Source: a virus
Direction: 5' to 3' (one strand)
Length of the DNA: 50,673 nucleotides
Virus record (IMG/VR): IMGVR_UViG_3300031645_000001
Span: 1 to 50,673 of that record
In this document: positions 3,795-50,673 of the stretch, one piece after another
How the letters are laid out: each line of letters starts with the position of its first letter
Position numbering within the stretch: the stretch's first letter is position 1
Translations under genes and position numbers: made by a program
The notes under the pieces: generated by a model
Seen by the model: only the letters and a program-made list of their open reading frames with translations
Databases searched by the model: none
What the model was told of the DNA's origin: nothing

Positions 3795-3819
3795 AGTTTG
3801 TTCGAATTCCGGGTGATCT
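3795..3819 (-). repeat. 25-bp palindromic element, copy 2
   Basis: Plus-strand arms AGTTTGTTCGA and CGGGTGATCT. It occupies exactly the whole gap between the glycosyltransferase stop codon (3822-3820) and the terminase ATG (3794), leaving no room for a separate ribosome site. Confidence 0.85.
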
Positions 3820-4788
3820 TTAATCGTTCCAAGGTTTCTTAGTTATAAGGTCAAAATAGCTATATTTTTGTTTTTCTTTCAACCATCCGTATTCAGCAGT
3901 TCCAAGACGTACAGCTTCAGGCCAGTAGTCGTCTACATTTATATGATGGCGAACTTTGAAAGCTTTCTCTCCAGCTTTAGCGAGTTTGTAACCTTCATCA
4001 GGTCCAGCTATTACCATGTAAGATAGGAGCACTCCAAAGCCGTGAGGCTTGTTGCCATTAGCTGCATAGGTACGATATTTGTACTGGCCGAGTTTTACAA
4101 CAGCTGGAGTGTAAGGCCCTATGTGGATTACAGGGTCAGTAGCAATAGACCAATTAGTGTAGCCTAACATGAGGGATTTCACTTGTTGAATTACCTCAGC
4201 ACCTCCCCATGAGATCATATGGTCAGAGTGTGAGCCGTAGCCTTTGAGGGTGTTAAGGTACCACTCACGACGACAGATCCAAGGCATGAACTTCCAGTAC
4301 ATTTTACGCTCATTACGATAAGCGCAATCCCAACCACCGTTAGGTAAGTTAGTAGGGCTAACTTTTAATGTGTGTTTGATACCTGCAGGACCTTGATGAG
4401 CCCAGCGAATTGGAGGATGGCCGAAACCCAGCATTTCCTCATCAGCATGACGATCCATGAAGTCTACAGAGTCATGCAGGGTGTTATAGCCAAATAGAAC
4501 ATGAGAGTCTACACAGAAAATGTATTCACCAGTTGCAGCTTCAGCTGCCCGCATTCGAGCGCTGGTAAAGCAGGGTTCTTCCTGTCTTATTATTCTTACG
4601 TTGTGTTTCTTGATGAAGCCTACTGGACAGGCTATTCCGATGAGTTCATAGAACTTTGGATCAGAGTTGTCACAGACCACTATTTCACACTCGCCAGATA
4701 CACTTTTGAGCATTTCTATAGCGTTGTTGAGAGTTACGTTGAGCATGACGATATCGTTTCTATTGGAGATAATTATTGAAAGTTTCAT
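3820..4788 (-). CDS. Family 2/27-like glycosyltransferase
   Basis: 322-residue GT-A glycosyltransferase. The N-terminus LSIIISNRND (residues 3-12) is the nucleotide-sugar fold opening. VDSHVLFG (93-100) provides a D-x-H metal site, and ISWGGAEVIQQVKSLMLG (192-209) resembles the WGGEN-type acceptor motif of polypeptide GalNAc-transferases (GT27) and galactosyltransferase 7C domains. The closest named relatives by motif are protein O-glycosyltransferases, but donor and acceptor are unknown. It overlaps the methyltransferase gene by ATGA and is transcribed with virion genes, several of which encode Thr/Pro-rich mucin-like tracts that would be obvious acceptors. A role in host-surface modification is the alternative. 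Confidence 0.8.
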   Translation of the reverse strand: MKLSIIISNRNDIVMLNVTLNNAIEMLKSVSGECEIVVCDNSDPKFYELIGIACPVGFIKKHNVRIIRQEEPCFTSARMRAAEAATGEYIFCVDSHVLFGYNTLHDSVDFMDRHADEEMLGFGHPPIRWAHQGPAGIKHTLKVSPTNLPNGGWDCAYRNERKMYWKFMPWICRREWYLNTLKGYGSHSDHMISWGGAEVIQQVKSLMLGYTNWSIATDPVIHIGPYTPAVVKLGQYKYRTYAANGNKPHGFGVLLSYMVIAGPDEGYKLAKAGEKAFKVRHHINVDDYWPEAVRLGTAEYGWLKEKQKYSYFDLITKKPWND

Positions 4789-5450
4789 TTCACCTCCAAG
4801 AAGTATACAACTTTTTTCTGGTTAGCACGAATAGTGTAGAACTTTATAGTTAAGTTATAGTTAGGAAACATAGTTATTATTTTTCTGGTCATCTCATGAT
4901 GTGATTGCCAAGTCATACGGAAGTTAACTAGTCCATCTTTAGTGGTTTTAATCAAGCGCTCGTAGTGATCAGTTTGTTTGATTTTCAAATGATCTATTTC
5001 ACCTTCACCTGGACAGTTAATGTCGAAAGTGAGAGCTTTAGGTTTAGTTGATAAGACGTTATTGAGTATAGTTTCCTGATCTTTTGTGCGTAAGTGGATT
5101 AAGACAGCGCTGATTAGCACTCCAGACTGTGAGTGAGTTATAGGTTGAGTAAGTTCCCTGTGAAAAACTTGAAGTATATATTCTGGGAAACGTTCTATGA
5201 TGCGACTAGTCATTGATAGTGAAGAGTCGTAACCTATGTAATTAGGCTCTTCTCTGACTTCCTTTAAGTATTCAAGGAACCTGCCAAAGCCGCAACCTAG
5301 GTCGAGGAAGGACTCAGTGTTGCTGTGTAAGAATTCGAACATGTCAAGAGTGTACTGAGGACGTTTATGGCCCCAGGTATTTTCAGCTCGCTTAGATTCA
5401 CGCTCATTCCAGTCGTTAGTTTTTGCTTTTGCACTTGCTTGTGCTACCAT
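4785..5450 (-). CDS. Class I SAM-dependent methyltransferase
   Basis: 221 residues. Motif I is FLDLGCGFGR (48-57), followed by the acidic motif II in IGYDSS, giving a Rossmann-fold SAM-binding domain. No DNA-methylase signature (DPPY/NPPY) is present, so a small molecule, sugar or protein acceptor is more likely. It sits between an SDR sugar enzyme and a glycosyltransferase with short overlaps on both sides, which suggests a glycan-modifying role. A copy of the 25-bp palindrome lies inside the coding sequence and encodes DHLKIKQT near residue 155. Confidence 0.75.
   Translation of the reverse strand: MVAQASAKAKTNDWNERESKRAENTWGHKRPQYTLDMFEFLHSNTESFLDLGCGFGRFLEYLKEVREEPNYIGYDSSLSMTSRIIERFPEYILQVFHRELTQPITHSQSGVLISAVLIHLRTKDQETILNNVLSTKPKALTFDINCPGEGEIDHLKIKQTDHYERLIKTTKDGLVNFRMTWQSHHEMTRKIITMFPNYNLTIKFYTIRANQKKVVYFLEVK
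4971..4995 (-). repeat. 25-bp palindromic element, copy 3 (inside methyltransferase gene)
   Basis: Plus-strand arms AGTTTGTTTGA and TCAAATGATCT. It lies fully inside the methyltransferase coding sequence, where the sense strand reads DHLKIKQT in the same frame as the other in-gene copies. Confidence 0.75.
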
Positions 5451-6250
5451 TTATAGTTCTCCATAAACCATTTAAAAGTTTTCTTAATTCCTTTATCTAG
5501 AGGTGTTTTAGCTTTTATGTCAGTTGAGGTCTCTACGTTAATTATTTCTCCTTTTATATACCCATTGAACTTTACAGGTGGTGCGTAGTTAGTTAATTCT
5601 TCAGAAGTATTTTGGATTAGGTATGCTAGTTGTTTTATGGAAGTTGTTATTCCAGAAGCTACACACATAGAGACCTTATTGCTGGAATTTATTATAGTAC
5701 TTACTACATCGTCAATGTAGATGAAGTCACGAGTTTGCTCGCCGTCTCCGAAGATTGTGAGGGCTTTTTTGTCTAGTGCATTGCGAATAAAAGCAGAGAT
5801 GACAGATGTCTTGTGGAGTGAATGAGGTCCGTAGACATTGGAAAGGCGTAAGATTGTAGTGTTTACGTTGTAAGCTTTACGATAGGTAGTGCAAAGTGCT
5901 TCACAGGCTAGTTTAGATGCAGAGTAAGGAGATTGAAGTTCTGGAGCCCCCATAGAGGAAGTGAAAACTAATCGAGCATCACAAGTTCGACAGTAGTTGA
6001 GGGCATTTAAAGTGCTAGTGATGTTTTCTAAAAATGCTTTCTTTGGCTTAAGAAGGGATTTCCTAACGTCTGTGAATGAGGCGAGATGGATGAAGTTAGA
6101 GCAAGATTGTATGTGGATAGAGACTTTGCAAAGATCACAGCCTGTGAGTTTGTCTAGGATGACGAAGTCTTTGAAAGATCTAGAAAGTTTAATAGATAAG
6201 TTCTTACCTATGAAACCTAAGCCTCCTGATATTATGTAGTCAGCATTCAT
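5444..6250 (-). CDS. NAD-dependent epimerase/dehydratase (extended SDR)
   Basis: 268 residues. The N-terminal GGLGFIGKN (residues 8-16) is the NAD-binding glycine motif, YSASK is the catalytic YxxxK, and LRLSNVYGPHS plus FGDGEQTRDFIYIDD are hallmark segments of nucleotide-sugar 4-epimerases/dehydratases. It is a little shorter than the usual 300-330 residues. The start overlaps the small-terminase stop by ATGA. It probably makes or alters a nucleotide sugar for the neighbouring glycosyltransferase. The exact reaction cannot be read. Confidence 0.85.
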   Translation of the reverse strand: MNADYIISGGLGFIGKNLSIKLSRSFKDFVILDKLTGCDLCKVSIHIQSCSNFIHLASFTDVRKSLLKPKKAFLENITSTLNALNYCRTCDARLVFTSSMGAPELQSPYSASKLACEALCTTYRKAYNVNTTILRLSNVYGPHSLHKTSVISAFIRNALDKKALTIFGDGEQTRDFIYIDDVVSTIINSSNKVSMCVASGITTSIKQLAYLIQNTSEELTNYAPPVKFNGYIKGEIINVETSTDIKAKTPLDKGIKKTFKWFMENYKW

Positions 6251-19901: not shown

Positions 19902-20537
19902 ATGACTAGATACATTCAATCAATCTGTTATAAATGTGACCCTCGTCACTATACACCTGGTAAAACAATCCAGGTAGATAACGAGGGTTGCTGTACTTCA
20001 TGTGGAAGGGATATAATGACTAAAATCTGTAATCCATTAGACTCTAAAATATATGCTAATGTACAACCAGAACGAGAAAATTACTACAGAGAAAAACTAA
20101 AGCGCTGGGATACCTACTTCTACTCTATCTGTGTTGCAGTAGCTTCTAAATCACCTTGCCTTTCTCGCCAGATAGGTGCTATCCTAGTACGAAATAAGAG
20201 AATAATCTCAACAGGTTTCAACGGTCCTCCTGTCAACTATCCTCATTGCTTAACCTGTCCTCGAAAAGAACAAGGATTTAAATCTGGTGAAGGTCTCCAC
20301 ATTTGCCCTGCTACTCATGCTGAGGGCAACTGTATAGCAACTGCAGCTTTGAATGGAGTTTCTACATTAAACACTGCACTTTACATGAACTGCATCATAT
20401 CTTGCAAAGACTGCATGGCTTTACTAATCAATGCAGGAGTTAAGGAAATAATAGTTGATAAATCTGAACCTTACCACTATCTAGCACTTGAAATGGCTAA
20501 ACATGCTAACATTAAAATAAGGAAATTCATACTATGA
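19902..20537 (+). CDS. dCMP/cytidine deaminase
   Basis: 211 residues. Zinc motif THAEGNCIA (His-Ala-Glu) and the downstream SCKDCM pair of Cys are the deaminase catalytic signature; ISTGFNGPPVNYPHC is the substrate-loop segment of dCMP deaminases. The first 45 residues hold two extra CxxC pairs (CYKCDPR, CTSCGRD), an additional zinc ribbon. It makes dUMP from dCMP, the substrate for the ThyX encoded at 26167. Ends by ATGA overlap with the next gene. Confidence 0.85.
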   Translation: MTRYIQSICYKCDPRHYTPGKTIQVDNEGCCTSCGRDIMTKICNPLDSKIYANVQPERENYYREKLKRWDTYFYSICVAVASKSPCLSRQIGAILVRNKRIISTGFNGPPVNYPHCLTCPRKEQGFKSGEGLHICPATHAEGNCIATAALNGVSTLNTALYMNCIISCKDCMALLINAGVKEIIVDKSEPYHYLALEMAKHANIKIRKFIL

Positions 20538-21724
20538 AAATCTTAGTACTTGGCTCAGACGGTTACATCGGCTATCCACTCACTCAACACTTACTCAAAG
20601 AAGGTCATCAAGTAATAGGACTCGACAACTACTCAAGACGTGGGAGAGTAAGTTATCTTGGAAGTAATTCACTAACTCCTATAAAAGAACCTGATATTAG
20701 AACAAAATACCTAAACACTCTTGGAGAGTACTTAGGAACTATTCAACATACTTTAAATGAGCATAGTATAGATGGACTTAAAAATGCTATCAGGAAATTT
20801 TCTCCATCTAATAACTCAATAGATGCTATAGTTCATCTTGCTGAGCAACCTTCAGCACCTTGGTCTATGTTTAATGCTCAACAAGCTGTAATAACCCAGC
20901 GTGAAAACGTTTTAGGAACACTAAACCTTCTCTGGATAATGAAAGAAATCTGTCCAGAAGCTCACTTAGTTAAATTAGGAACTATGGGAGAGTATGGAAC
21001 ACCTACTTGTGATATTCCTGAGGGAGTTATACCTGAGGATTGCATAGGAAACATTCAAGACGAATATCATGGATCTGTAGCAGAATGTCCTATGTCCGGA
21101 CTCCTCTTCCCTCGCACACCTGGTTCCTTCTACCACCTAACCAAAGTACACGATACTTACAACATCCACTTTGCTTGTCGTAACTGGGGATTACATTCCA
21201 CTGACATTATGCAAGGTGTCTTATTTGGACTTGAGTCTGGAACTCGCTTCGACTACGACGAATACTTTGGCACAGCTATTAATCGCTTCTGTGTTCAGGC
21301 TATAATAGGTATGCCACTTACTGTCTATGGTTTAGGTCAGCAAACTCGTGGATTTCTACCTCTAAAAGATTCTATCCAGTGTTTAACAATAGCGTTAGAA
21401 AACCCACCTGAACTTGGTGAGTATAGAACACTTAACCAATTCGAGAATATTTACTCTATTAATCACTTAGCTGATATGGTATGTAGAGGTGCTAAACAAC
21501 TAGGAATCCATGCTTCTATTTCTCACATTTCTAATCCACGTAAGGAAGCTGAAAGTCATTACTACAATCCAGATCATCAGAAGCTATTTGATCTAGGTTA
21601 CATACCTACTACTAATATCCAAGGTGAGATAAATAACTTACTTGAAACTATCTTACCTTACAAAGATCGAGTAATTAAAGATGTAATAATGCCTAAAACA
21701 AACTGGAGGTTAACTAATGGCTAA
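20534..21724 (+). CDS. sqdB: UDP-sulfoquinovose synthase homologue (SqdB/SQD1 family)
   Basis: 396 residues, the normal length for this family. NAD motif GSDGYIG (7-13); LVKLGTMGEYGTP contains the catalytic Thr; FYHLTKVHDTYN contains the YxxxK pair; then DYDEYFGTAINRFCVQA, GMPLTVYGLGQQTRGFL, NPRKEAESHYYN and YKDRV all follow plant SQD1/bacterial SqdB in order. The family converts UDP-glucose and sulfite to UDP-sulfoquinovose for sulfolipid or, in archaea (Agl3), protein glycans. In this genome it lies inside the DNA-metabolism operon, overlapping dCMP deaminase, with no sulfoquinovosyltransferase next to it. A sulfated sugar for virion or host-surface glycans is the simplest inference. Confidence 0.88.
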   Translation: MKILVLGSDGYIGYPLTQHLLKEGHQVIGLDNYSRRGRVSYLGSNSLTPIKEPDIRTKYLNTLGEYLGTIQHTLNEHSIDGLKNAIRKFSPSNNSIDAIVHLAEQPSAPWSMFNAQQAVITQRENVLGTLNLLWIMKEICPEAHLVKLGTMGEYGTPTCDIPEGVIPEDCIGNIQDEYHGSVAECPMSGLLFPRTPGSFYHLTKVHDTYNIHFACRNWGLHSTDIMQGVLFGLESGTRFDYDEYFGTAINRFCVQAIIGMPLTVYGLGQQTRGFLPLKDSIQCLTIALENPPELGEYRTLNQFENIYSINHLADMVCRGAKQLGIHASISHISNPRKEAESHYYNPDHQKLFDLGYIPTTNIQGEINNLLETILPYKDRVIKDVIMPKTNWRLTNG

Positions 21725-21962
21725 TGAAAACTACAAGCCGCGCTTCTCATTTGAGGTAAGTGAGGAACAAAAGCAGCGTGCTGATAAAGTACTTTCTACC
21801 TACGGCTTACGCAAAGCTATCTTTGGTCAAATCTTAGACGATGTCTGTGACTTGATCGAAGAGTATGGTGGAGTAGCTATTGGAGTAATAATGAGTGGCA
21901 AGATAAAACCTAGAGACGTAATTCCATCTATGAAGCGAGCAGAGGAGGTGGGCAAAAAATGA
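21717..21962 (+). CDS. Possible ribbon-helix-helix DNA-binding protein
   Basis: 81 residues. PRFSFEVSEEQKQRADKVL (8-26) then LRKAIFGQILDDVCDLIEEYG gives a strand-helix-helix arrangement compatible with ribbon-helix-helix repressors. GGAGG lies upstream; the start overlaps the SqdB-like gene by 8 bases. If it binds DNA, the dispersed 25-bp palindromes are candidate targets. Fold assignment by pattern only. Confidence 0.6.
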   Translation: MANENYKPRFSFEVSEEQKQRADKVLSTYGLRKAIFGQILDDVCDLIEEYGGVAIGVIMSGKIKPRDVIPSMKRAEEVGKK

Positions 21963-22322: not shown

Positions 22323-23636
22323 ATGACTATTGACGTAGGTACTGTAGCAATGATTCCATTGGAATCTATAACTATCTCAGAACGAGCTCGCAAGGAAATG
22401 GGAGACCTTAATGAACTAGAACTTGACATGAAGGAATCAGGTCTTATCCAACCACTTGCCTTTCAAAAAACTGACTCTGGATACTTACTCTTAGCTGGTG
22501 GTAGAAGATTTGCAGTCTTAGAAAAAAACAAGACTCCACTCATTCCAGCTAGAATATACGACAGAGAACTAACAGAACTTGAAATAAAGATCATTGAGAA
22601 GTCTGAAAACTTTCACCGTAAAGACTTTGAATACTATGAGTTAGATGTATTAACTATGGAAATCCATAGAATGAAACAAGAACTCCACGGTGTGAAAGCT
22701 CCAGGTCCTGATCAAGATGGTTGGGGCACTCGTGATACTGCAAAACTAATCAACGTTAAGAGTCCATCTGTCGTTGTAGATGCAGTTAAGCGAGCTGAAG
22801 CACGGGAAGTATTTCCAGAACTATTCGACAGCTGTAAAACAGCAAGTGATGCTTCTAAAGTGCTCAAGAAAATGGACGAAGCATTGATTAAACAAACTAT
22901 CGTACAGAAATTAGAAAGTGATAAATCAACTGGTACATTAACACAGTTATCTAAATGCTTTATTATCAAAGATTTCTTCAAAGGTGTTAAGGAAATCCCT
23001 GATAGCATCATGCACTTAGTAGAAATCGACCCTCCCTATGCTATCAACATCAAAGGTAAGAAGAAGAAAGATGGTGAGTCTAAATATATGCTACAAGACT
23101 ATAACGAGATAGATGTTGAAGACTACCAACTCTTCATGGCTAATGTTTTTAAAGAATGTTATCGAGTAATGACCAACCACTCATGGCTTATCTGCTGGTT
23201 TGCTCCAGAACCGTGGTTTGAAATTATTTACCAAGAACTAAACAATGCAGGATTTTCTACTAATCGTATGGTAGGTGTTTGGGCTAAAGGTTCAGGTCAA
23301 AGTATGCAACCTCAAACTCGTCTAGCTAACTCTTATGAGATGTTCTTCTACGCATGGAAAGGTCAACCTGCACTTAACAAAGCAGGTCGTAGTAATCTAT
23401 TCAACTTCCCACCAATCTCTGGACAACATAAGATTCATCCTACAGAGCGTCCAATAGAGCTTACCACTGAAATTTATAACACTTTTGCCTTTCCAGGTTC
23501 ACGTGTCCTTATTCCATTCCTCGGCTCAGGCAACGGTCTTATATCAGCTCACTTACTTAGCATGAGTCCTGTTGGATTTGAACTAGGTAAATCCCACAAA
23601 GATTCATTCTTGGTCAAAGTTCACATGATGAAATGA
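22323..23636 (+). CDS. ParB-domain / DNA methyltransferase fusion
   Basis: 437 residues. Residues about 10-110 form a ParB/Srx-like domain (LELDMKESGLIQPLAF, LLAGGRRFAVLEK, EKSENFHRKDFEYYELD). Residues about 220-435 are a DNA amino-methyltransferase with DPPY (236-239) before FLGSGNG (about 399), the permuted order of N6-adenine/N4-cytosine enzymes, and FNFPPISGQHKIHPTERP between them. Such fusions are common in phages and protect DNA from host restriction or mark it. Target sequence unknown. Its TGA stop is the first three bases of a palindrome copy. Confidence 0.88.
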   Translation: MTIDVGTVAMIPLESITISERARKEMGDLNELELDMKESGLIQPLAFQKTDSGYLLLAGGRRFAVLEKNKTPLIPARIYDRELTELEIKIIEKSENFHRKDFEYYELDVLTMEIHRMKQELHGVKAPGPDQDGWGTRDTAKLINVKSPSVVVDAVKRAEAREVFPELFDSCKTASDASKVLKKMDEALIKQTIVQKLESDKSTGTLTQLSKCFIIKDFFKGVKEIPDSIMHLVEIDPPYAINIKGKKKKDGESKYMLQDYNEIDVEDYQLFMANVFKECYRVMTNHSWLICWFAPEPWFEIIYQELNNAGFSTNRMVGVWAKGSGQSMQPQTRLANSYEMFFYAWKGQPALNKAGRSNLFNFPPISGQHKIHPTERPIELTTEIYNTFAFPGSRVLIPFLGSGNGLISAHLLSMSPVGFELGKSHKDSFLVKVHMMK

Positions 23637-26812: not shown

Positions 26813-28069
26813 ATGACTAACAAGCGGAATATCCCTGACTGGATCAATGGCTTCATGCTACTCACTGAAGAATCTGAACCTCCTATTCTATTTCGTAAGT
26901 GGACAGCTATTGCAACTATTGCAGCTGCACTCCAACGTAAGGTTAGTATAGATATAGGAATTTCACTTCGCTTTTACCCTAACTTCTATATAGTCTTAGT
27001 TGGCCCTTCTGCTACTGGCAAAGGAACCGCTATGAAGTATGCTCATGATATAATAGAACAAGTTCCTAACATACGATTAAGTGCTCAAGCTACTTCACTC
27101 CAAGCAATAATCAGACGTATGAAAGAAACTAATCTTACAGACATAGATATGGAAACAGGTGATCAGATCTACCATTCATCTATGACCATCTTCTCTAACG
27201 AATTTACAGTATTTCTAGGCTACCAAAATCGTGAACTAATCACTGCACTATGTGATTGGTATGACTGTCCTAATCGTTGGGTCTACGATACTATTAGTCG
27301 TGATAAGGAAGAAATAGTTGGAATGTGGGCTAATCTTTTAGGTGGCACAACACCTGAGAATATCCAAGAAGCATTACCAGTAGCTGCTATAGGTGCTGGC
27401 CTTACATCTCGAATCATCTTTGTTAATGAAGAGAAGAAGAATAAGTTAGTAGTGTTTCCTAAAACTACTTCACATGAAAGAGATCTCCAAGAATACTTAG
27501 TCCATGATTTAGAACAAATAGCATTATTAAGTGGTTCGTTTAGATTTACTGCTGAAGCTATGGATTACTATGCTGAGTGGTGTTACTTAGCTGACTCTAA
27601 TCCTCCATTTCATGATAGTAAGTTTGACGGTTACTGTGGTAGAAGACGTAATCACTTATTATCCCTCGCTATGGTATGTTCAGCTAGCTGTGATAGTTCC
27701 TTAGCTTTACGAAAAGACGATATTGAAAGAGCTGCTGAGTTACTAGCAGAAGTTGAAGTTAGAATGGGACTTGTTTTTAGAGGTATGGGTAAGTCTGACA
27801 TATCATCTTTAATATCTGATGCTATAGTATTTATAGAAAATAGTACAACTGATCAAATAATGCTATTTGAATTTGCTAGAAAGTTCGAAGGTAATATGGA
27901 TAAGTTTACTATGGATAGAGTAATTAGTACTTTGGAAGCTCTAAATTATATAAGAGTAGTTCGCAAACCAGGAATGGAAAACTATATAGATATTTTAGAT
28001 CGTGCTGAAAATGATTGTACGAAAATCGAACAAACTAATCCAAACCCTGACTCTGAGGATTGTATCTAA
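26813..28069 (+). CDS. DUF3987-type replicative helicase/primase-associated ATPase
   Basis: 418 residues. Walker A GPSATGKGT at about 64-72 after an N-terminal IPDWINGFMLLTEESEPP; FSNEFTVFLG, ALCDWYDCPNRW and NLLGGTTPENIQEALP are typical of the DUF3987 superfamily, whose members combine with or replace phage replicative helicases. C-terminal winged-helix-like segment (LFEFARKFEGNMDKFTMDRVISTLEALNYIR). No separate primase was found. The gene ends inside the oppositely oriented ejection-protein gene, overlapping it by 35 bases, and its tail TKIEQT is encoded by a palindrome copy. Confidence 0.8.
   Translation: MTNKRNIPDWINGFMLLTEESEPPILFRKWTAIATIAAALQRKVSIDIGISLRFYPNFYIVLVGPSATGKGTAMKYAHDIIEQVPNIRLSAQATSLQAIIRRMKETNLTDIDMETGDQIYHSSMTIFSNEFTVFLGYQNRELITALCDWYDCPNRWVYDTISRDKEEIVGMWANLLGGTTPENIQEALPVAAIGAGLTSRIIFVNEEKKNKLVVFPKTTSHERDLQEYLVHDLEQIALLSGSFRFTAEAMDYYAEWCYLADSNPPFHDSKFDGYCGRRRNHLLSLAMVCSASCDSSLALRKDDIERAAELLAEVEVRMGLVFRGMGKSDISSLISDAIVFIENSTTDQIMLFEFARKFEGNMDKFTMDRVISTLEALNYIRVVRKPGMENYIDILDRAENDCTKIEQTNPNPDSEDCI
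28012..28036 (+). repeat. 25-bp palindromic element, copy 14 (at the convergent junction)
   Basis: Arms TGATTGTACGA and TCGAACAAACT. Located in the last codons of the helicase gene and touching the stop of the convergent ejection-protein gene. On the plus strand it encodes DCTKIEQT. Confidence 0.85.
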
Positions 28070-31000
28070 GGTCATTTAATACATCAAAGAAGCGATCTTC
28101 ACTTTCCTTACCTACATATCCAGCATCTAATAACCTATCTAACTCTTCATTCAAAGCAGATCTTTCAGCTGGAGAAGATTCTGCTTTCCATATCTTGTAA
28201 AAATCCTTAGCTTTAAACTCTGGTGTAGTGTGAAATAATGAGGACCAACTAGACCTATGTGGTAAGTGAGCTGTGTCTTCTACAAATTTCTTCTTGCGTT
28301 CTAATGAAGCTATAATATGCTTTTCCTCAAACTTATCTATAAACTTATCTACATCTGCTTCATTCCCTACACCTTTCCAATAGTATCCTTCAGCTATAGC
28401 ATTAAATTCTTCCCGTCTAAGCATGTTATTAAAGGATTCATCTTGTAACATTCCACTTCTATCACTTTGTCTGTAAGCTCTTGGAACTGTAACTCCCATT
28501 AAGTTTCTCAATCCTGGAGTTTGTGCTATAGTCATAGCCCAGTGTTGTTTCTTTAATCTTGGGTCTAAGTCACTTGTAGCTAAGTCATAAATCTTACCTA
28601 TAGCCCAGGTGTATTCATTACTCTGCAATCCAAGGTTACGTCCAGCTGCTTTCAACCTTGGAGCTGACAATCCAGTAGCCTTACCTACATCCTTTGCAAG
28701 CTGTCCTAACTTAGGGTCACGCTGACCTTCTTCACCACTCTTAGGCCAATCAAATGCTTCATCTACTACACTCCTATTCTTCCATGTATCTAAGTTATGA
28801 AAGTAAGCAAAATAAGCAGCTAATGTTGGTGAAAGTGGAGTGTCAGTAGGTAGTGACCTAGTAATTGAATCCACTATCGACTGATAGTCTGGTTCTATAT
28901 CTGACATACCAGTTTCATATAACATCTTATTAGTAAGTCCTCTAAAGATATTATAAAAGGTAGCTGCAATAGGATCAGAAGGAACTGTAAAGGTAATCCA
29001 TCTCTTATTACCTTCTTCATCTATAAAGTTAAGCGAGTCAGGGAATAGTGTAAAAGTAGGGCCATTAATATGCTTCCATTCTGGGATATCTCTATTAGCT
29101 TCAGTTGCAAAGAGTGCCATAGCAGTTGTCATACCAACTGTAGGTATCGCTATATTAGCAACTCTAGCCCAAAAGTCTACTGGATTTTCCTTAGCTCCTC
29201 TCCCAAATGTCCTACCTGCGTTATAGCTAGCACTAATAAAAGGTCCAAATACTTTATCAATCTCCTTAACTAACCATCCACCTTGTCTATAAGGTAAACG
29301 TTCAACAGCTACATTGGTAGCTTCCATAGTCATGTCTCTGTTTTTATAAGCTTCCTCCAACGTAATGCCAGCTGCTTCAGCTTGCTGCTTAAGTGACCTT
29401 TCCATAACTGCTACTCTATTCCACCTCTCCATGCTTTGTCCCCAGAAGCTTAAACCATCTAATGCCTTATTCCAAGCATTAGGAGGCTTAATTCCTCTAC
29501 CCATAAAGTGACTTTCTCGCATAGCAAGGAAAGGCATAACTCCACCATTCTTTTCATACACTCCAGTTTTCTTACCTCTACTCATTACATCGTAGAAAGT
29601 GTTACCCATATCTTTACCAATCTGACCTACATATTTAGGTGAGAATCTACTAAACGTACGCTTGTATTTACCTGTATCTGAATCAAATGATCTAGCACTA
29701 AAAAAGGTATGACCTAAGTCCATCGTAATACCTCTTGTAGTAGCCCACATAGCAGATGTTCCAACTGCTAAAGCCCTTGTAAGATTAACACCTAACACTG
29801 TTGTAAGAACTCTAGTCAATGGATAACTCATGTGACCACCAGTTGATAGCAACTGTAGTGCTACATCAGGATGATAGTACATGGTCTGCTTCTTTCCGTT
29901 GTCATACCAAAAATCCCTGACCCACCCTTTTGGGATCTTACGGACAGGTCTACTTGCAGCCTTGTCATTCTGCTGGAATATTACAAGTGGATTATCTGGA
30001 TACTTTTCATCAAAGTCTTTCCATTCAAGCTTAGTTTCCTGATTACTAACTCGTCTGTAAATTCTATCCGCTGTCTCTTTGTACAAGATTCTTGAATCAG
30101 TTTCTATCATCGAGATAGCATTCTTACCTAATGGATCAATACCTGAGTCAGATTGTCTAACTAACTTATCGCCTACTCTTATTTTATACTTCTGATCAAA
30201 CATCTTTTCAATATTAAAAGATCTAATCTTTCTATAATCATGAGATTTTAACAGCTTACCTTCCTCCTCTGACTTAAGCCCTACTCTAACCATATCGTCT
30301 ACCCATAACCTAACATGGTCAGACATTACAGCACTTGCCTTTTCAGCTATAGCTCTTTCCTCAACAGTCATTCCCATGTAGAGATTAACTAACTTGTCAA
30401 CAGCTGCTGTCTGCTCAGCATTCATGCCTTTAGGACCTTTAAATTCTTTAGCAGTCTTATATCCATAGATGTCCTTTAACCTTTTAATTAGATCAACTGC
30501 ATCTATTTGCGTTGTTAAATTCTTAGGTACTCCTTTGTAAGCTTCTTTTCTCATCTCATAGAACATCCTATCAGCGCGTCCATCTGCAGCATCACCTGCA
30601 TCTATATACTGCAACATTCTATAACCGTCTTTTCCATATTCTTTAATCAGCTGACTGCGTAGCTGAAACTTCTTCTCATGTATAGCACGACCTGTGTGTA
30701 AGCCTGATCTGTCTAGGAATCTCTTCAGTTTAAACCGCTTAGCATTTCTAGCATCTTCAAATGACTCATACCATTCACCTGCTTTGTAAACTGCACGTTC
30801 TTTAGGTGAGGTACTACCTATTCCTTTACTCTTTATTTTATCTTTGATAGTTTTGTATAGTTTAATTACTTCCTTAGGATCTAGACCTGAATAAGCAGTA
30901 AATCCCTCTCCGTCAGGCCCTTTTTTACCTTTAAGCATATCAGTCTTTATACGTAGTTCTGTAATATTAAGACCGTTAGTTCTAAATACTCTATTATCAC

Positions 31001-35777: not shown

Positions 35778-36224
35778 CTAATCAAACATCCTTCTACAGG
35801 ATGATTTGTAAGTTTCAAATCCATGGGAATCTAAAAGCTGTTTTACTCTTTTACTAGAATAGTCAGCTATTATCCCATTGCAGTTATTAGCTTTAGCATA
35901 AATTTTGAAGTTTTTATAAACCTCATCCATTGAAGCTATTGAAACCATCCTAAAACCATATAGTGAATCAATATTTAAGACTCTATCTCCATAGTATTTC
36001 TCATCAATTATTTTAGTTGTAAAGATAAAGTTTATTCTCTTTTTATCTTCCTTATCTAACTTATAACCTATCCAAGCTTGATATAGACCTGATAGTATAT
36101 TTTCTAAATACTTTATACCAAAGTCTTGTTGAAACTTCTTTGGTATCTTATAAGCCTGTATTACACAATGTCTAATCATCTCCCAGAATAATGGCACTTG
36201 ATCCGGCTGAAGTTTAATAAACAT
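35778..36224 (-). CDS. GNAT-like protein in T7 gp13 position
   Basis: 148 residues. The C-terminal part AKANNCNGIIADYSSKRVKQLLDSHGFE fits the end of an acetyltransferase (GNAT) fold, as seen in several podovirus proteins at this position. A-motif residues for acetyl-CoA binding are not obvious, so a structural or assembly role is possible. Overlaps the preceding gene by 11 bases. Confidence 0.6.
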   Translation of the reverse strand: MFIKLQPDQVPLFWEMIRHCVIQAYKIPKKFQQDFGIKYLENILSGLYQAWIGYKLDKEDKKRINFIFTTKIIDEKYYGDRVLNIDSLYGFRMVSIASMDEVYKNFKIYAKANNCNGIIADYSSKRVKQLLDSHGFETYKSSCRRMFD

Positions 36225-37392
36225 CTATCTCTCCTTTTGGGTCTCTTGTAAATCGTTGGTCTATAAATTTAAACTGGATACTCATATAGGAAAGATCAAA
36301 AGTTCCATATATTAAACCTTTTAACCTAATCCTAAATTCAACTCCAGCTGTTCTTATATGTGCTACTCCTTCATCATTTAAAGGTGTCCAAGGAGTTGTT
36401 TTGAATTCTTCCTTCTTTTTATATCTGTAATCTATTGCAGCTTGCAGTGGGATATTAGAGATAGCATCAAACTGAATTGATTCAATAGATTTCAAACCTC
36501 TACGTTTAAGATCTAATGTATCAATTACTACTTCAACTGGATTAGCTTCTAATGTCTCAGGTGATACGCCAGTAAGATTTTCCTTAATACGATAGAGACC
36601 AGTTAAGTTAGCATACCCACCTGTTAGCGTTCCTTCATTAAAGATATACCCAGCTACTTCATCACTGATGTGAAGTCTGTCTTCATCAGCATCCCAAGTT
36701 AAGACAGGGTTAGTTAAAGGTAATAAGAATTCTTCATAACCTAGTTTGTTAAGTCCTTCAGATGTTAACTTATAAAGGCAACCTAGGGTGTCTATAAAGA
36801 AATGAGTAAATTGATCTCCACCAACAGCTGTCTTATTCTTAATACCTACCTTTGATAAATCTTTGAATCCAAAAGTTGGTGCAGGTGCTGAAACTGGAAA
36901 GGCTAAGGTTATTCCAGTGCTGCCATAAATTACTACATTCTTATCTAATTGCCTAACTTGATAAACATATCCAGTCCAAGACATAGGTCTACGACCTGCA
37001 TCATTTGTCAAGTCAAGTTCCATACTTACATTACCTATCTTACTCCAAGCTACCCAATTCTTTTTATTACTGTTAGCTACAGCCCAACCAGATAATGAAA
37101 CTTCAATTGTCATAGTTGAATTAACTATAGTAGTTGATATAGGAAACTCACCTGAAATAGATACACTAATAGATAATTCTAGATCATCCATTATATAGGT
37201 CCCATTTAAAGGATCACCTTCAAGTGAGATTTCTATAATAGGGACACCAAAGTAGTTATTAGCTGCGCAATCAAAGGTAAGGTCAGCATCAAAGTTATGA
37301 GGAGATGGAGTAGTAGGAGCAGGTGTAGTAAGTGTAGTTGTAGGAACTAGCGTTGTAGGTGGAACTGTTGTTGGAACAACTGTAGTTGCCAT
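36214..37392 (-). CDS. Tail nozzle/tube-like protein with N-terminal PTT tract
   Basis: 392 residues. Residues 3-30 are a mucin-like tract (VVPTTVPPTTLVPTTTL, PAPTTPSP). The rest is beta-rich; FTHFFIDTLGCLYKLTSEGLNKLGYEEF, LTWDADEDRLHISDE and GYIFNE are propeller-like repeats as in T7 gp12-type nozzle proteins. At under half the normal nozzle length it may be the C-terminal portion of a split nozzle, with 39294-39791 providing the N-terminal portion. It ends with FIDQRFTRDPKGEIDVY. Confidence 0.6.
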   Translation of the reverse strand: MATTVVPTTVPPTTLVPTTTLTTPAPTTPSPHNFDADLTFDCAANNYFGVPIIEISLEGDPLNGTYIMDDLELSISVSISGEFPISTTIVNSTMTIEVSLSGWAVANSNKKNWVAWSKIGNVSMELDLTNDAGRRPMSWTGYVYQVRQLDKNVVIYGSTGITLAFPVSAPAPTFGFKDLSKVGIKNKTAVGGDQFTHFFIDTLGCLYKLTSEGLNKLGYEEFLLPLTNPVLTWDADEDRLHISDEVAGYIFNEGTLTGGYANLTGLYRIKENLTGVSPETLEANPVEVVIDTLDLKRRGLKSIESIQFDAISNIPLQAAIDYRYKKKEEFKTTPWTPLNDEGVAHIRTAGVEFRIRLKGLIYGTFDLSYMSIQFKFIDQRFTRDPKGEIDVY

Positions 37393-41235: not shown

Positions 41236-42534
41236 CTAAGCAAGATTATTATCCAGGCCGACACTGTTAAGGACAGCACACTTTTGTGGCAGTCCAAATT
41301 CAAGACCGCACTCAGTAAGATATTCCTCCCAAGTGCCATCAAGTCTACGTTGTCCGTAACCTTCCGGATGCTGTTTAGCAGATGACTCACCAAAGAACTG
41401 TGTATCATCTACATAACGATAGCCCATTTCCTTAGGTTCAATGATAATTCCCATGTTGCGAGTAGTTGGGTCATAAGAGAAGAGCGGATGAGTCTTCATA
41501 TGGATAGTACCAAAAGGTGTTATCCAGGAACGAATGTCCATCCCGTAGGTCTTCTGTGCTGGTTGAAGGTTAATCTGACCACCAGTCATTGCAAGAGCAT
41601 CAATGCCGAGCAAGAAGCCAGAGCCACAGAGACAAAGTTTCTCATTAGCTCCATAGCGAAAGATCTGCTCAAGTATAGCTTTGAACCAGATTTCTCCACT
41701 AGCTGCCCATGTTTGACCTGCATAGTCTACATTAAGTGAATAGTCATCACAATTAGCAGCCGCATACTGACGGATGAAGTTAATTACACCCATAGTAGTA
41801 CGTTCAGGTTTTCCGTTATCTCCGATATTCTCAGTTCGAATACCCCAGAGGAATGCAAGTTCTATTTCCCATGAGTGCATCTCGAGCGCTTCAGATTTCA
41901 TCTTCTGGTAAGCATCCCCAGTTCGAAGACAAGTCTTGCGAGCAGTTCGAGTAATAGAAAGTGGAGTACGGAAGATCTGTGTATAATTGTAGACCTTTAC
42001 TGGATTAAGTGCAATAGCATCAGGCATCTCACCGCCCTCAGGATTGATGTTACCTATGATCTTAAAACAATCACAGTCGCTAAGGTCATGACCTCCGGCA
42101 GCACCATTAGTATCAGCTTCGAGTAAGTTAATAGCAAGAACTGTATTAACTGCTCCTCGAGTTACTCCAGTTACTTTACCAACTACAGTCATACGATAGT
42201 CAGAAGCATCTTGAAGAAGAATCTGATGCCCTTCACGAATACGATTGCCAAGCACTGTAGTAATTTGAGCATAGACTACAGTAGGGCCAGCAGCAGTGTA
42301 AGCTACACTAAGGTCAGCTAAAGTATAAATACCCTCGATGTCTCCACCTACAGCTGTTTGCTCCTGTGTCCACCAATGGAACTGAGGATCGTCAACACCT
42401 TCATTGCCGATCATTGATAGGATAGCTGTTAAAGGAGCCATACCATTAGGGTAAAGCTTCATTATTTGTTGTCTCCAGTTCAGGGGTCTTTGATCAGTGA
42501 CCCAGTCACCGTTTCCTCTCATTCCAAGAAACAT
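41236..42534 (-). CDS. Major capsid protein (DUF5309 / SU10-like)
   Basis: 432 residues. Position after the scaffold, length, and segments LNPVKVYNYTQIFRTPLSITRTA, ALEMHSWEIELAFLWGIRTEN, TTMGVINFI and WITPFGTIHMKTHPLF agree with the HK97-fold DUF5309/SU10-like capsid family. Preceded by GGAGGT and followed by a strong hairpin. Base composition is more GC-rich than adjacent genes, as expected for a highly expressed gene. Confidence 0.85.
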   Translation of the reverse strand: MFLGMRGNGDWVTDQRPLNWRQQIMKLYPNGMAPLTAILSMIGNEGVDDPQFHWWTQEQTAVGGDIEGIYTLADLSVAYTAAGPTVVYAQITTVLGNRIREGHQILLQDASDYRMTVVGKVTGVTRGAVNTVLAINLLEADTNGAAGGHDLSDCDCFKIIGNINPEGGEMPDAIALNPVKVYNYTQIFRTPLSITRTARKTCLRTGDAYQKMKSEALEMHSWEIELAFLWGIRTENIGDNGKPERTTMGVINFIRQYAAANCDDYSLNVDYAGQTWAASGEIWFKAILEQIFRYGANEKLCLCGSGFLLGIDALAMTGGQINLQPAQKTYGMDIRSWITPFGTIHMKTHPLFSYDPTTRNMGIIIEPKEMGYRYVDDTQFFGESSAKQHPEGYGQRRLDGTWEEYLTECGLEFGLPQKCAVLNSVGLDNNLA

Positions 42535-42557
42535 AATTGATTACCTCCTATTGATTA

Positions 42558-42582
42558 AGTTCGAACGATTTTTAAACGAACT
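42558..42582 (-). repeat. 25-bp palindromic element, copy 21
   Basis: Plus-strand arms AGTTCGAACGA and TTAAACGAACT. In the gap between the decoration protein and capsid genes, ahead of the capsid ribosome site. Confidence 0.8.
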
Positions 42583-42594
42583 GTTAATGTTAAA

Positions 42595-43020
42595 TTATCC
42601 AGCCTGTGTAGTTGGTGCTGAAGAAGGTGGTGCTGTAGTAGGCGGCTGAGTAGTACCAGGAGCTGGTGTAGTTAAGAAACAAGGTACAGTTGTACCAAGA
42701 GCGTGCCAATTAAGGCCGTCACTATACAACAATGCTTTATCACATTTACCATTGAATACTATGTTAGTCCAGCACTCACTATCATCAAAATCTGTGATAG
42801 TAACATACTGTGTCGCATTAGCCCCTCGACATACTAGAGAGTAAAACCTCCCCTTTGCATCAGCTACAGGTGGAAGTGTTATAGTGATAGCTCCACTATC
42901 TCTATCCGCAGTAGGACGCAAGACATAGTCCCTAGTAGTCATCTGATAATTCGCATTAGGGTTATGGTATTTATCAGGTGACTCTCTATAATGTTGCTCA
43001 TTATTTTGCTCAAGTCCCAT
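42595..43020 (-). CDS. Possible capsid decoration protein with PTT-type tail
   Basis: 141 residues. Beta-rich domain (DYVLRPTADRDSGAITITLPP, GRFYSLVCRGANATQYVTI, ALLYSDGLNWHALGTT) followed by a Thr/Pro/Ala tail from about residue 117 (TTPAPGTTQPPTTAPPSSAP). It lies between scaffold and capsid, the usual place for a decoration or head-fibre protein, and carries one of several mucin-like tracts in this genome. Confidence 0.65.
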   Translation of the reverse strand: MGLEQNNEQHYRESPDKYHNPNANYQMTTRDYVLRPTADRDSGAITITLPPVADAKGRFYSLVCRGANATQYVTITDFDDSECWTNIVFNGKCDKALLYSDGLNWHALGTTVPCFLTTPAPGTTQPPTTAPPSSAPTTQAG

Positions 43021-43046
43021 AGTTAAATTACCTCCTTATTGTTAGT

Positions 43047-46467: not shown

Positions 46468-46787
46468 TATGGAGCTGCAGTTGTAGGTACCATAGTTGTA
46501 CAGTTTAAAGCTAGTGGATTGTTTACTATAAAGCTACACCATTGGCCAGTTAATCGTACTCCAGGATCAAATACTATACCTTGATATAGCCACTCACCAA
46601 CTTGATCAAGCTCACCTAGTGTGATGTCGTAGTATATACAGTTATCGTCTGTAGCACATAATATAGCAGCCCAGCACCCAGTCGTCCCATCAGGCTTCCT
46701 ATATCTAATCTGTAATGTATCGTAACCTGATAAGTCTAAATTTGTACAATAAGTTAATCTTGGAGTATCATTAACAAAGGTTTCCAT
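46467..46787 (-). CDS. Small tail-region protein with PTT end
   Basis: 106 residues. CTNLDLSGYDTLQIRYRKPDGTTGCW and LDQVGEWLYQGIVF follow a small phage tail/baseplate-associated family (Ig-like). The last residues (CTTMVPTTAAP) begin a mucin-like tract. Overlaps the start of the next gene by 17 bases. Confidence 0.65.
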   Translation of the reverse strand: METFVNDTPRLTYCTNLDLSGYDTLQIRYRKPDGTTGCWAAILCATDDNCIYYDITLGELDQVGEWLYQGIVFDPGVRLTGQWCSFIVNNPLALNCTTMVPTTAAP

Positions 46788-47970
46788 AGCATCTTAGTTC
46801 CTTAGTTATTATTGAATGACAGATTATTTCATCAACTATTATTGAATTACAAGTTTTTATACAAACTTCTGCATCACTAATTAAAGTAGTAGGCACTAGA
46901 GTAGTTGGAGGAATAGTTGTTGGCACTACTGTTGTAGGTGCAGAAGTAGTTACTATAGATGTTGTTGGCAATTGAGTTGTAGGCGCTGTAGTAGTAGGAA
47001 CGATAGTAGTGGGTGAGATAGTAGTGGGTGCAACTGTAGTAAGTAAGACAGTAGTCGGTGCGATAGTAGTAGGTAATAAACTAGTAGGTGCAGCTGTAGT
47101 TGGTACAACTGTTGTCACAGCTAAAGTAGTAGGTGCTAGAGTTGTCGGTGCTAAACTTGTGGGCGCTAACGTAGTAGGAGCCAAGGTAGTAGGTAAGATT
47201 GTAGTAGGGACTACTGTAGTAGGAGCTAAAGTAGTCGATAAGATAGTTGTTGGAGCTAAAGTAGTTGGAACAGTAGTTGTTGGATACACTGTAGTAGATA
47301 CTGGTGTAGTAGCTACAAATACTGTAGTAGGTGCAACAGTTGTCGGATATACTGTAGTTGGAGCTAATGTAGTCAGTAATAAAGTCGTGGGTGCAAGTGT
47401 CGTAGGTGCTAAGGTCGTTGGAGCAAGACTGGTTGGAGTTACAGTAGTTGGAGTCAGAGTAGTTGGAGCTAAGCTTGTCGGCGCAGCTGTGGTAGGTGCT
47501 GCAGTAGTCGTAGGTATTGGAGTAGTAGCTACTAGAGATGTAGTAGGTGAAATAGTTGTGTAGATAGGTGTAGTTGGAACAGGTGTCGTTGCAGGTGCTA
47601 TCGTAGTAGGCGTCACCGTTGTTGGTGCTAAGGTGGTAGGCGATAGTGAAGTGGGAGCTAAAGTGGTTGGAGTTGTGGTTGTAGGAACAGCTGTCGTTAC
47701 AAAATCAGCAACCACATCTTGAACTTCAATAATTGGAGCTGAAGTTGTGGGTGCCAAAGTAGTAGATGCTATAGTTGTAGGTGCTACTGTTGTAGAAGGT
47801 GATGTAGTAGGAGACTCAGCGTCTCTCAAAACCTCGATACATGCTTGTATGATATTGACAGAGGGATCGCCAGCCCTGAGTACCTCGACACAAGCTTGAG
47901 TGATATTGACAGAGGGATCGCCAGCCCTGAGTACCTCGACACAAGCTTGAGTGATTTTAATATCTGTCAC
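46771..47970 (-). CDS. Mucin-like PTT-repeat virion protein
   Basis: 399 residues. The start has three copies of a 17-residue unit ITQACVEVLRAGDPSVN (DNA period 51 bases, nearly identical), a motif known in phage fibre attachment proteins. Residues about 53-370 are an almost pure tract of (A/V/S)PTT(L/V/I/S) repeats of five residues, and the end is Cys-rich (CIKTCNS, ICHSII, CYGNLC). Codons within the repeats are diverse, so the protein repeat is what is selected. Likely a long flexible virion projection, potentially heavily O-glycosylated. Confidence 0.75.
   Translation of the reverse strand: MTDIKITQACVEVLRAGDPSVNITQACVEVLRAGDPSVNIIQACIEVLRDAESPTTSPSTTVAPTTIASTTLAPTTSAPIIEVQDVVADFVTTAVPTTTTPTTLAPTSLSPTTLAPTTVTPTTIAPATTPVPTTPIYTTISPTTSLVATTPIPTTTAAPTTAAPTSLAPTTLTPTTVTPTSLAPTTLAPTTLAPTTLLLTTLAPTTVYPTTVAPTTVFVATTPVSTTVYPTTTVPTTLAPTTILSTTLAPTTVVPTTILPTTLAPTTLAPTSLAPTTLAPTTLAVTTVVPTTAAPTSLLPTTIAPTTVLLTTVAPTTISPTTIVPTTTAPTTQLPTTSIVTTSAPTTVVPTTIPPTTLVPTTLISDAEVCIKTCNSIIVDEIICHSIITKELRCYGNLC
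47851..47955 (-). repeat. 51-bp tandem repeat in the fibre gene
   Basis: The sequence beginning GATATTGACAGAGGGATCG is repeated at a 51-base interval (47851 and 47902) and extends partly into a third, diverged unit. It encodes the 17-residue repeat above and is much more conserved than the PTT tract beside it, indicating recent duplication. Confidence 0.85.
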
Positions 47971-49084: not shown

Positions 49085-49109
49085 AGTTTGTCCGAATTTT
49101 GTACGTTCT
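49085..49109 (-). repeat. 25-bp palindromic element, copy 23
   Basis: Plus-strand arms AGTTTGTCCGA and TTGTACGTTCT. Overlaps one base of the stop codon of the large fibre gene and lies in the 50-base gap before the LamG-like fibre gene. Confidence 0.85.
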
Positions 49110-50673
49110 TATGCAGCAGATATTTTCACTTTAATCCATCCACTACATACAAAAGGTATTGTATAATCATGCCATATATCAGCTTCACAATTAACTTCTG
49201 AATTCCCTTGTTTATACTTTAATTCTGGATCACCAAATCCAGCATCATATTTATCTATAGTTAATCTAACTCTTCCTGACCCTATATGCCAAGTTTCTGA
49301 TTCTTCTGATTCTCCAGAGTCAAATAGTATTCTTTCAGTATCAGCTACACCAGCATCTACTATTTGACCTGTACCAGTCCAATTAACGTTAAAGTTTCTT
49401 ATATTATCCTCAACAACTCCAGTATCATGGCCCCAACAAACTGTTCCAATAGTAGGGGCACTTGTGGTAGGAACAAGTGAAGTTGGCGCTAAAGTTGTTG
49501 GTGCAAGTGTTGTTGGTGCTAGAGTAGTAGGGGCCGTTGTCGTGAGCGCTAAGGTTGTGGGAGCTAGAGAAGTTGGTGCAAGTGTAGTTGGACCTAAAGT
49601 AGTAGGAATACCTGTAGTTGGTGTTAACGTAGTAGGTGCTATTGTAGTCGGTGCAACCGTAGTCGGTGGCACTGTACCAGCGTCATCTCCACAAACCCCT
49701 ACAGAAAAATAATCACAGTCTCCATAACCATAATTGAGAGTGCTTGATGAAAATCTATGAGCAACCCAACCAGATCCAGTAACATCAGAATCGGTCTCAT
49801 CAATTAACCAAGTTCCTGGTTCAGCATCGCCATCTTCCCAGACACGAACCTTTAAACTTGTTCCTATAGCCCTAAATCTAATCCAGTACCAAGTGTCGTA
49901 ATCAACAGTAAAGGCTTCTGATTTTATTAAATAATCAAGAGCCCCACCTGTACGCTTACGAAGTTGAAGAACATCTGAATCAAATATGTGAGCTAAATAG
50001 CCAGAACAACTACCAACGCTACCAGATCCTCTAACCACTACACCGGTGGTTGAAGAATAACCATTATCTGATATTCTAGATTTACATAAAACTTCTACGT
50101 CTGTAGGAGCTCCAACATCATCCCAAGAAACTACACAATCAGTAGATTCATAGATTTTACATTCTAAACACTTACCTCCAATATCTCCATCATCTCGAAT
50201 AGTAAACCACTGATCTCCATTGTCCCATCTAAGTGTCCAATCCCCTGGAGTCAAATCAGTAGTATATTCACTAAAGTCAGTAACATAACTTGCAGGCGTA
50301 CAAGTAGTAGGTGCAACTGTTGTAGGTGCAAGACTTGTTGGTGCTAGAGTAGTCGGTGCCATTGTCGTAGGCGCCAACGTAGTAGGTGCTAAGCTTGTCG
50401 GAGCTAGTGTAGTAGGTTCCATGGTGGTAGGAGCTAACGTGGTAGGAGCTAATGTAGTAGGTTCTAATGTTGTAGGGCTTATAGTTGTAGGTGCTAACGT
50501 AGTGGGTGCAAGTGTCGTAGGGGCTAAGGTAGTAGGTGCTAATGTGGTCGGCACTGTGGTAGTTGGTGCACTAGTTGTGGGTACAACTGTTGTTCCACTC
50601 GCCGCCGCATAATCCAATATCGACCAAACCTTACCATACGACCACTGCTCAGTATCATCAGTAACACCAGAGT
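49109..50673 (-). CDS. Large fibre protein with two mucin-like tracts and ConA-like domain (partial; starts at 131 across the join)
   Basis: C-terminal 521 codons in the window of a 540-residue protein. From the N-terminal WSYGKV repeats it enters a PTT tract of about 95 residues, then a ConA-like domain (SWDDVGAPTDVEVLCKSR, WYWIRFRAIGTSLKVRVWEDG) shared with the 37880 gene, a second PTT tract of about 70 residues, and a C-terminal beta domain of about 105 residues. TTG at 50617 is an internal codon, not the start. Function: host recognition, with Thr/Pro stalks likely modified. Confidence 0.82.
   Translation of the reverse strand, partial: SGVTDDTEQWSYGKVWSILDYAAASGTTVVPTTSAPTTTVPTTLAPTTLAPTTLAPTTLAPTTISPTTLEPTTLAPTTLAPTTMEPTTLAPTSLAPTTLAPTTMAPTTLAPTSLAPTTVAPTTCTPASYVTDFSEYTTDLTPGDWTLRWDNGDQWFTIRDDGDIGGKCLECKIYESTDCVVSWDDVGAPTDVEVLCKSRISDNGYSSTTGVVVRGSGSVGSCSGYLAHIFDSDVLQLRKRTGGALDYLIKSEAFTVDYDTWYWIRFRAIGTSLKVRVWEDGDAEPGTWLIDETDSDVTGSGWVAHRFSSSTLNYGYGDCDYFSVGVCGDDAGTVPPTTVAPTTIAPTTLTPTTGIPTTLGPTTLAPTSLAPTTLALTTTAPTTLAPTTLAPTTLAPTSLVPTTSAPTIGTVCWGHDTGVVEDNIRNFNVNWTGTGQIVDAGVADTERILFDSGESEESETWHIGSGRVRLTIDKYDAGFGDPELKYKQGNSEVNCEADIWHDYTIPFVCSGWIKVKISAA
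50601..50673. repeat. Terminal direct repeat, right copy
   Basis: Exact copy of bases 1-73, see the left copy. It lies within the coding sequence of the large fibre gene. Confidence 0.95.

Follow-up and report, generated by a model that had tools for sequence, protein, structure and literature searches.

A SqdB-clade sugar-nucleotide enzyme of SU10-like phages co-occurs with a predicted polypeptide GalNAc-transferase-like enzyme and may take part in virion glycosylation

What a homologue of the UDP-sulfoquinovose synthases does among the replication genes of a phage, which sugar it makes and to which acceptor this sugar is passed, are the questions raised by this locus. The window, i.e. the whole stretch of DNA analysed (50,673 nucleotides), comes from an IMG/VR virus record and is a phage genome, encoding Sak4-like, PolA, ThyX, primase and terminase proteins, an SU10-type capsid and portal, an SLT protein and, by a weak match, a P22-gp7-like protein. 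The initial annotation had located the reading frame inside the phage replication module, overlapping a dCMP deaminase gene, and both statements hold. The gene and its immediate neighbours are:

20534..21724, + strand: SDR gene, 396 aa, ATG start, frame open; nucleotide-sugar SDR of the SqdB/SQD1/Agl3 clade, with Pro106 in place of Arg101
19902..20537, + strand: dCMP deaminase (PHROG 174), overlapping the SDR gene by 4 bases
21717..21962, + strand: small conserved gene 3' of the SDR gene, overlapping it by 8 bases; right-hand marker of the insertion site

The replication module also includes a ParB-like N-terminus fused to a DNA methyltransferase domain (22323-23636). A virion-type protein of 1877 aa, with an SLT transglycosylase domain close to the N-terminus, is encoded at 28035-33668.

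The SDR protein is a full-length homologue of SqdB/SQD1 featuring the catalytic Thr and the YxxxK motif, as the initial annotation had it. Residues 2-392 align to SQD1 (1qrr) in phmmer searches (E 3.6e-94), and residues 1-392 match the NCBIfam model NF041015 UDPsulfquin_syn (E 1.6e-133) with 445.4 bits, a score below the curated cut-off of this equivalog (575 bits). The triad is in place (Thr150, Tyr200 and Lys204, the latter two in YHLTK), the NAD motif GxxGxxG reads GSDGYIG at position 7, and the Glu153/Tyr154 pair is also kept. The AlphaFold model has a pLDDT of 77 and is weak at residues 150-203; among the entries listed by VIA-align, the closest fold is SQD1 with UDP-sulfoquinovose (1i2b, Z 41.9), the next family scoring 28.2. 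In one related phage (L024, about 3406-5598) the SDR gene is interrupted by an intein-like in-frame insert, with a Cys start, a TPNH block and an SGN/T end, located exactly within the active-site motif GTMGEYG/TPNC (slashes mark the junctions).

Agl3 mutants H95A, R101A, M145A, Y182A and K186A are devoid of activity, E147A and Y148A are impaired, and T144A is still active (PMC4388408). All the residues probed in Agl3 are retained in the window SDR except Arg101 (EQRSAP), which corresponds to Pro106, a replacement relative to SQD1 and Agl3 that had been overlooked in the initial annotation. Arg101 may be a sulfite contact. Pro is found at position 106 in 58/58 sampled viral rows, and Arg in every proven UDP-sulfoquinovose synthase lineage; this position is the only one at which all 58 viral rows are set apart from all 19 Arg-type rows by a fixed residue, the latter rows including SQD1, S. 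meliloti SqdB and Agl3. Cellular rows lacking Arg at 106 (n=60) carry Pro (58) or Ala (2). Many cellular genes (loci L026-L105) which can be annotated as UDP-sulfoquinovose synthase are of the Pro type, and lack the Arg essential in Agl3.

The window SDR is a member of the SqdB/SQD1/Agl3 clade of extended SDRs. In the tree, in which the Agl3 sequence was recognised through the exact DNA of published mutagenesis primer sites, a single branch with 100/100 support unites the phage enzymes with the Agl3 clade and with the Pro types of bacteria and archaea; SQD1 and SqdB fall outside, and the phage SDR is nearer to Agl3 than SQD1 is. A distant non-sulfonating SDR clade, the alternative that phylogeny had been expected to settle, is not where the phage SDR falls, so that the tree does not speak against sulfonation. 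The Arg/Pro state changed twice on the tree and Agl3 is nested among Pro types, which rules out that Pro types form one monophyletic non-sulfonating clade. Pro-type SDRs near the cellular ones were found also in three contigs of 173-241 kb (L021, L022, L139), presumably jumbo phages. The neighbourhoods of cellular Pro-type genes feature glycosyltransferases and epimerases, and no clear pathway could be recognised in them.

The designation UDP-sulfoquinovose synthase, proposed in the initial annotation, stands as to clade membership; as an enzyme name it is weakened by the change of the essential Arg to Pro, by the NF041015 score under the cut-off and by the lack of a co-varying sulfite gene. 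Proven synthases flank the phage enzymes in the tree, yet the latter miss a residue essential in one of these; the chances that the product is UDP-sulfoquinovose appear about even, and the window SDR is not filed under that name.

Full-length SDR relatives are encoded by 122 IMG/VR stretches. Among cultured phages (INPHARED), no full-length relative was found for the SDR or for the transferase described below, and no near DNA match. The gene order of the window, i.e. ligase-like, exonuclease, Sak4, (deaminase), SDR, small gene, ParB-methyltransferase, PolA, primase, is common to some 45-50 of the loci fetched. The identical site is occupied in dozens of related phage contigs, which rules out that the SDR is a host or contaminant gene. 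When loci were anchored on the polymerase instead of the SDR, about half of the SU10-like lineage turned out to lack the SDR; in these relatives the deaminase gene, or the gene before it, abuts the downstream gene, leaving a clean empty site. The notion that the SDR is a core gene of the lineage was discarded for this reason. Several SDR carriers have lost or relocated the deaminase and retained the SDR. In a sister group (L135, L136, L152, L155, and G026 near 16180) the SDR gene is part of the late operon, where it immediately follows the gene for the SU10-type capsid protein. The window counterpart of this capsid protein is:

41236..42534, - strand: SU10-type major capsid protein, the gene of which directly precedes the SDR gene in four related loci

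Empty sites and the alternative location in the late operon denote the SDR as an accessory gene, retained at preferred sites.

The gene content of near-complete contigs of the lineage was compared, taking into account all ORF families in 27 genomes. Apart from the SDR itself, a single family shows a strong association with the SDR: a glycosyltransferase encoded by 18/18 carriers and by 1/9 non-carriers (p 4e-6), the next family reaching p 0.026. It is found in a cassette together with two further genes:

3820..4788, - strand: GT-A glycosyltransferase, 322 aa, PF00535 only; between terminase genes, late strand
4785..5450, - strand: SAM-dependent methyltransferase of the transferase cassette, found in a minority of relatives
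5444..6250, - strand: second nucleotide-sugar SDR, epimerase-like, optional; best PDB match Pal

A scan from the transferase side added one near-complete genome which is transferase-positive and lacks the SDR, and the figures become 18/18 versus 2/10 (p 1.4e-5). The association is not due to adjacency, as 16 kb separate the two genes, which lie on opposite strands in the window. A phage tree built from four genes has at least 6 changes of the SDR state on supported branches; the transferase changed along with the SDR in 5/6 independent pairs and in the opposite direction in none (sign test, p 0.0625, a value limited by the number of pairs). No sulfite-supply gene was associated with the SDR among the ORF families of the 27 genomes, and no lipid-carrier or flippase family strongly so. 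The second SDR, being found in a minority of carriers, was ruled out as an obligate partner of the first. The suggestion that the SDR supplies a glycosyltransferase of the phage itself gains support from the strong co-occurrence of the two genes; the other proposal made at the outset, that the host membrane lipids are altered, is unsupported, as a sulfolipid glycosyltransferase is not among the genes seen and the transferase linked to the SDR is of a predicted polypeptide type.

By its predicted structure, this transferase resembles enzymes that O-glycosylate polypeptides. Residues invariant in an alignment of 20 phage members are D94-S95-H96, W194-G195-G196 and H222. Profile matches to PDB entries include chondroitin synthase (E 6e-8) and polypeptide GalNAc-transferase 10 (E 3e-7). 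The model has a pLDDT of 91, and all 29/29 polypeptide GalNAc-transferase entries listed match it with Z scores of 23.9-26.2 over about 270-285 residues, the next family scoring 18.9; Foldseek concurs on the GalNAc-transferase fold (E 2e-12). In polypeptide GalNAc-transferases, Mn is bound by DxH and a later His (PMC4202792, PMC6994419), to which H222 of the phage transferase would be structurally equivalent. The ricin-like C-terminal lectin domain is missing and identity to GalNAc-transferases is about 12-19%; for these reasons the phage enzyme is said to work like GT27 enzymes, not to be a member of GT27.

Candidate acceptors were found in the window as Thr-rich proteins, which their late-module position would make virion components:

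46771..47970, - strand: late-module protein with mucin-like Thr/Pro-rich repeats, about 300 aa (119 Thr and 54 Pro in 308 residues)
49109..50617, - strand: late-module protein, mucin-like, with two APTTLAPTT stretches flanking a globular domain; the frame is open up to the window end, and the true start may therefore be beyond it
36214..37392, - strand: late-module protein, mucin-like over a short N-terminal part (Thr-rich run)

The mucin-like proteins of the window reach 9 PTT motifs within 40 residues. In the repeat of 46771-47970, the third base of the Thr codons is variable (T in 62, A in 39, G in 10 and C in 8), denoting that a protein pattern is kept, not a DNA repeat. Runs were scored as mucin-like when 40 residues contain five or more PTT/PTS or TT[TS]T motifs; this motif rule superseded an earlier one based on Thr/Ser/Pro composition, which gave 31/80 cellular false positives. 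Under the motif rule, devised after seeing the data, mucin-like runs are found in 12/20 transferase-positive and 0/8 transferase-negative phages (p 0.008, for a rule set post hoc), and in 0/80 cellular loci. SDR-bearing viruses outside the lineage have no mucin-like runs near the SDR. Poly-Thr/Ser runs replace the APTT repeats in two transferase-positive phages lacking the SDR, G039 (contig 41237-43717) and L439. A clear mucin-like run is missing in 8/20 transferase-positive phages, and the acceptor may therefore be another molecule.

The reading preferred here, to which a probability of roughly 55% is assigned, is that of a phage pathway in which a modified UDP-sugar, produced by the SDR, is used by the transferase to O-glycosylate mucin-like virion proteins. 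What is observed is the gene with its family assignment, the loss of Arg, the accessory distribution, the co-occurrence and the Thr-rich repeats, along with the fold predicted for the transferase; the substrate and product of the SDR, the direction of transfer, the acceptor and any sulfonation are inferred. During infection, the NAD-dependent SDR would oxidise C4 of UDP-glucose, or of a near relative, and then eliminate the C6 hydroxyl; the product would be UDP-sulfoquinovose if sulfite is added, otherwise an unsaturated or differently C6-modified UDP-sugar. The transferase (3820-4788) would move the sugar to Thr residues in the Thr/Pro-rich stretches of the proteins encoded at 46771-47970, 49109-50617 and 36214-37392, and in the window phage the second SDR and the methyltransferase probably modify the sugar further. 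Counted against the pathway is the residence of the SDR with replication genes, the transferase and the Thr-rich proteins being in the late module.

Two alternatives concern the product. If sulfite is added, the SDR is a true UDP-sulfoquinovose synthase and the virion bears sulfonated O-glycans, a view differing from the preferred one in the product only and given somewhat less than an even chance. It is favoured by the bracketing of the phage enzymes between SQD1, outside, and Agl3, inside the 100/100 clade, by the retention of the other catalytic residues tested and by 1i2b (SQD1 with UDP-sulfoquinovose) being the nearest fold, Z 41.9, but it has to accommodate Pro in all 58 viral rows at the site where R101A inactivates Agl3 (PMC4388408), the unreached NF041015 cut-off and the absence of a co-varying sulfite-supply gene. 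A non-sulfonating 5,6-dehydratase, or another C6-modifying enzyme, would instead release UDP-glucose-5,6-ene or a derivative, from which a deoxy or methylated sugar would arise by the action of the second SDR and the methyltransferase; the same credit, a little under even, is given to this. The loss of the essential Arg fits such an enzyme, and Agl3 itself yields the 5,6-ene when sulfite is absent (PMC4388408, PMC8987622). The best PDB match of the second SDR, Pal, acts on a UDP-sugar-5,6-ene according to a title in the references of PMC8987622, though this match is scarcely ahead of those to ordinary epimerases; epimerase-type SDRs adjoin cellular Pro-type genes too, but among the phages the second SDR is present in a minority of carriers only. 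The Agl3 mutant R101A is inactive overall (PMC4388408), and Pro enzymes must hence carry out even the first half reaction without Arg.

The remaining alternatives concern the acceptor. Delivery of the sugar to a wall polymer or lipid at the host surface, resulting in serotype conversion or superinfection exclusion and leaving the virion unmodified, is judged unlikely. Similarity of the transferase to chondroitin polymerase, TarP/TarS and RmlT, and the early position of the SDR gene, are consistent with it; matches to these polymer transferases are however about 7 Z units below those to polypeptide GalNAc-transferases, the transferase gene sits between terminase genes on the late strand, no lipid-carrier or flippase family is strongly associated, and mucin-like proteins track the transferase. 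Transfer to phage DNA, as hypermodified bases, is suggested by the location of the SDR among replication and nucleotide genes, near dCMP deaminase, PolA and ThyX, and modification of DNA by phage glycosyltransferases is known (reference in PMC12619734). Yet no base hydroxymethylase was seen among the annotated genes of the window, several carriers keep the SDR though the deaminase is lost or moved, and the transferase is predicted to adopt a polypeptide-type fold; this destination is held to be very improbable.

The phage SDR resembles plant SQD1, bacterial SqdB and Sulfolobus Agl3 in full length, predicted fold, NAD motif, triad and Glu-Tyr pair. It differs from them in being an accessory gene, in having Pro106 for the essential Arg101 and, in most phage members, in a longer, Cys-containing loop ahead of the YxxxK helix. 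It is not the first viral homologue reported. In the accessible text of a 2020 paper, a putative UDP-sulfoquinovose synthase is ascribed to a Mu-like virus of the Cariaco Basin and to a second contig (PMC7785012); there, as here, a virus-borne homologue was deduced from sequence. In contrast to the phages described here, that virus is Mu-like, an effect on host N-glycosylation was proposed, and that text reports no linked transferase or acceptor. GT27, the family of mucin-type GalNAc-transferases, has been described as never found in bacteria, plants and fungi (PMC6994419). The phage transferase shares with it the predicted fold of the catalytic domain, DxH, WGG and the later His, and departs from it in the low identity (about 12-19%) and in the missing ricin-like lectin domain. 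Mycobacteriophage virions carry glycans on the C-termini of capsid and tail tube proteins (Freeman et al. 2023, as cited in PMC12619734). A phage-encoded glycosyltransferase acts on virion proteins there, as is proposed here, and the window lineage adds a co-inherited sugar-nucleotide enzyme and mucin-like repeats. Judging from the open-licence papers searched, what is new is the loss of Arg throughout the viral family, an accessory gene that leaves empty sites, its pairing with an enzyme resembling polypeptide GalNAc-transferases, and the mucin-like proteins.

Many metagenomic SqdB-like genes annotated as sulfoquinovose synthase lack one essential residue, and sulfoquinovose may not be what they make; claims on the sulfur cycle drawn from viral SqdB-like genes are affected by this. 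Phage virion glycosylation is known from few isolates only; the gene pair described here, repeatedly gained or lost, connects a dedicated sugar-nucleotide enzyme with a transferase predicted to fold like the animal mucin initiators, and with mucin-like proteins of the virion module. Mucin-type O-glycosylation in tailed phages with a SqdB-clade sugar, possibly sulfoquinovose, which would give a negatively charged, sulfonated mucin coat, is a rather doubtful proposal. If true, phages would exist with a mucin-type coat and a chemically unusual virion glycan, sulfoquinovose would be found on a phage particle, and mucin-type O-glycosylation would extend beyond eukaryotes, providing a testable origin of, or parallel to, the eukaryotic process.
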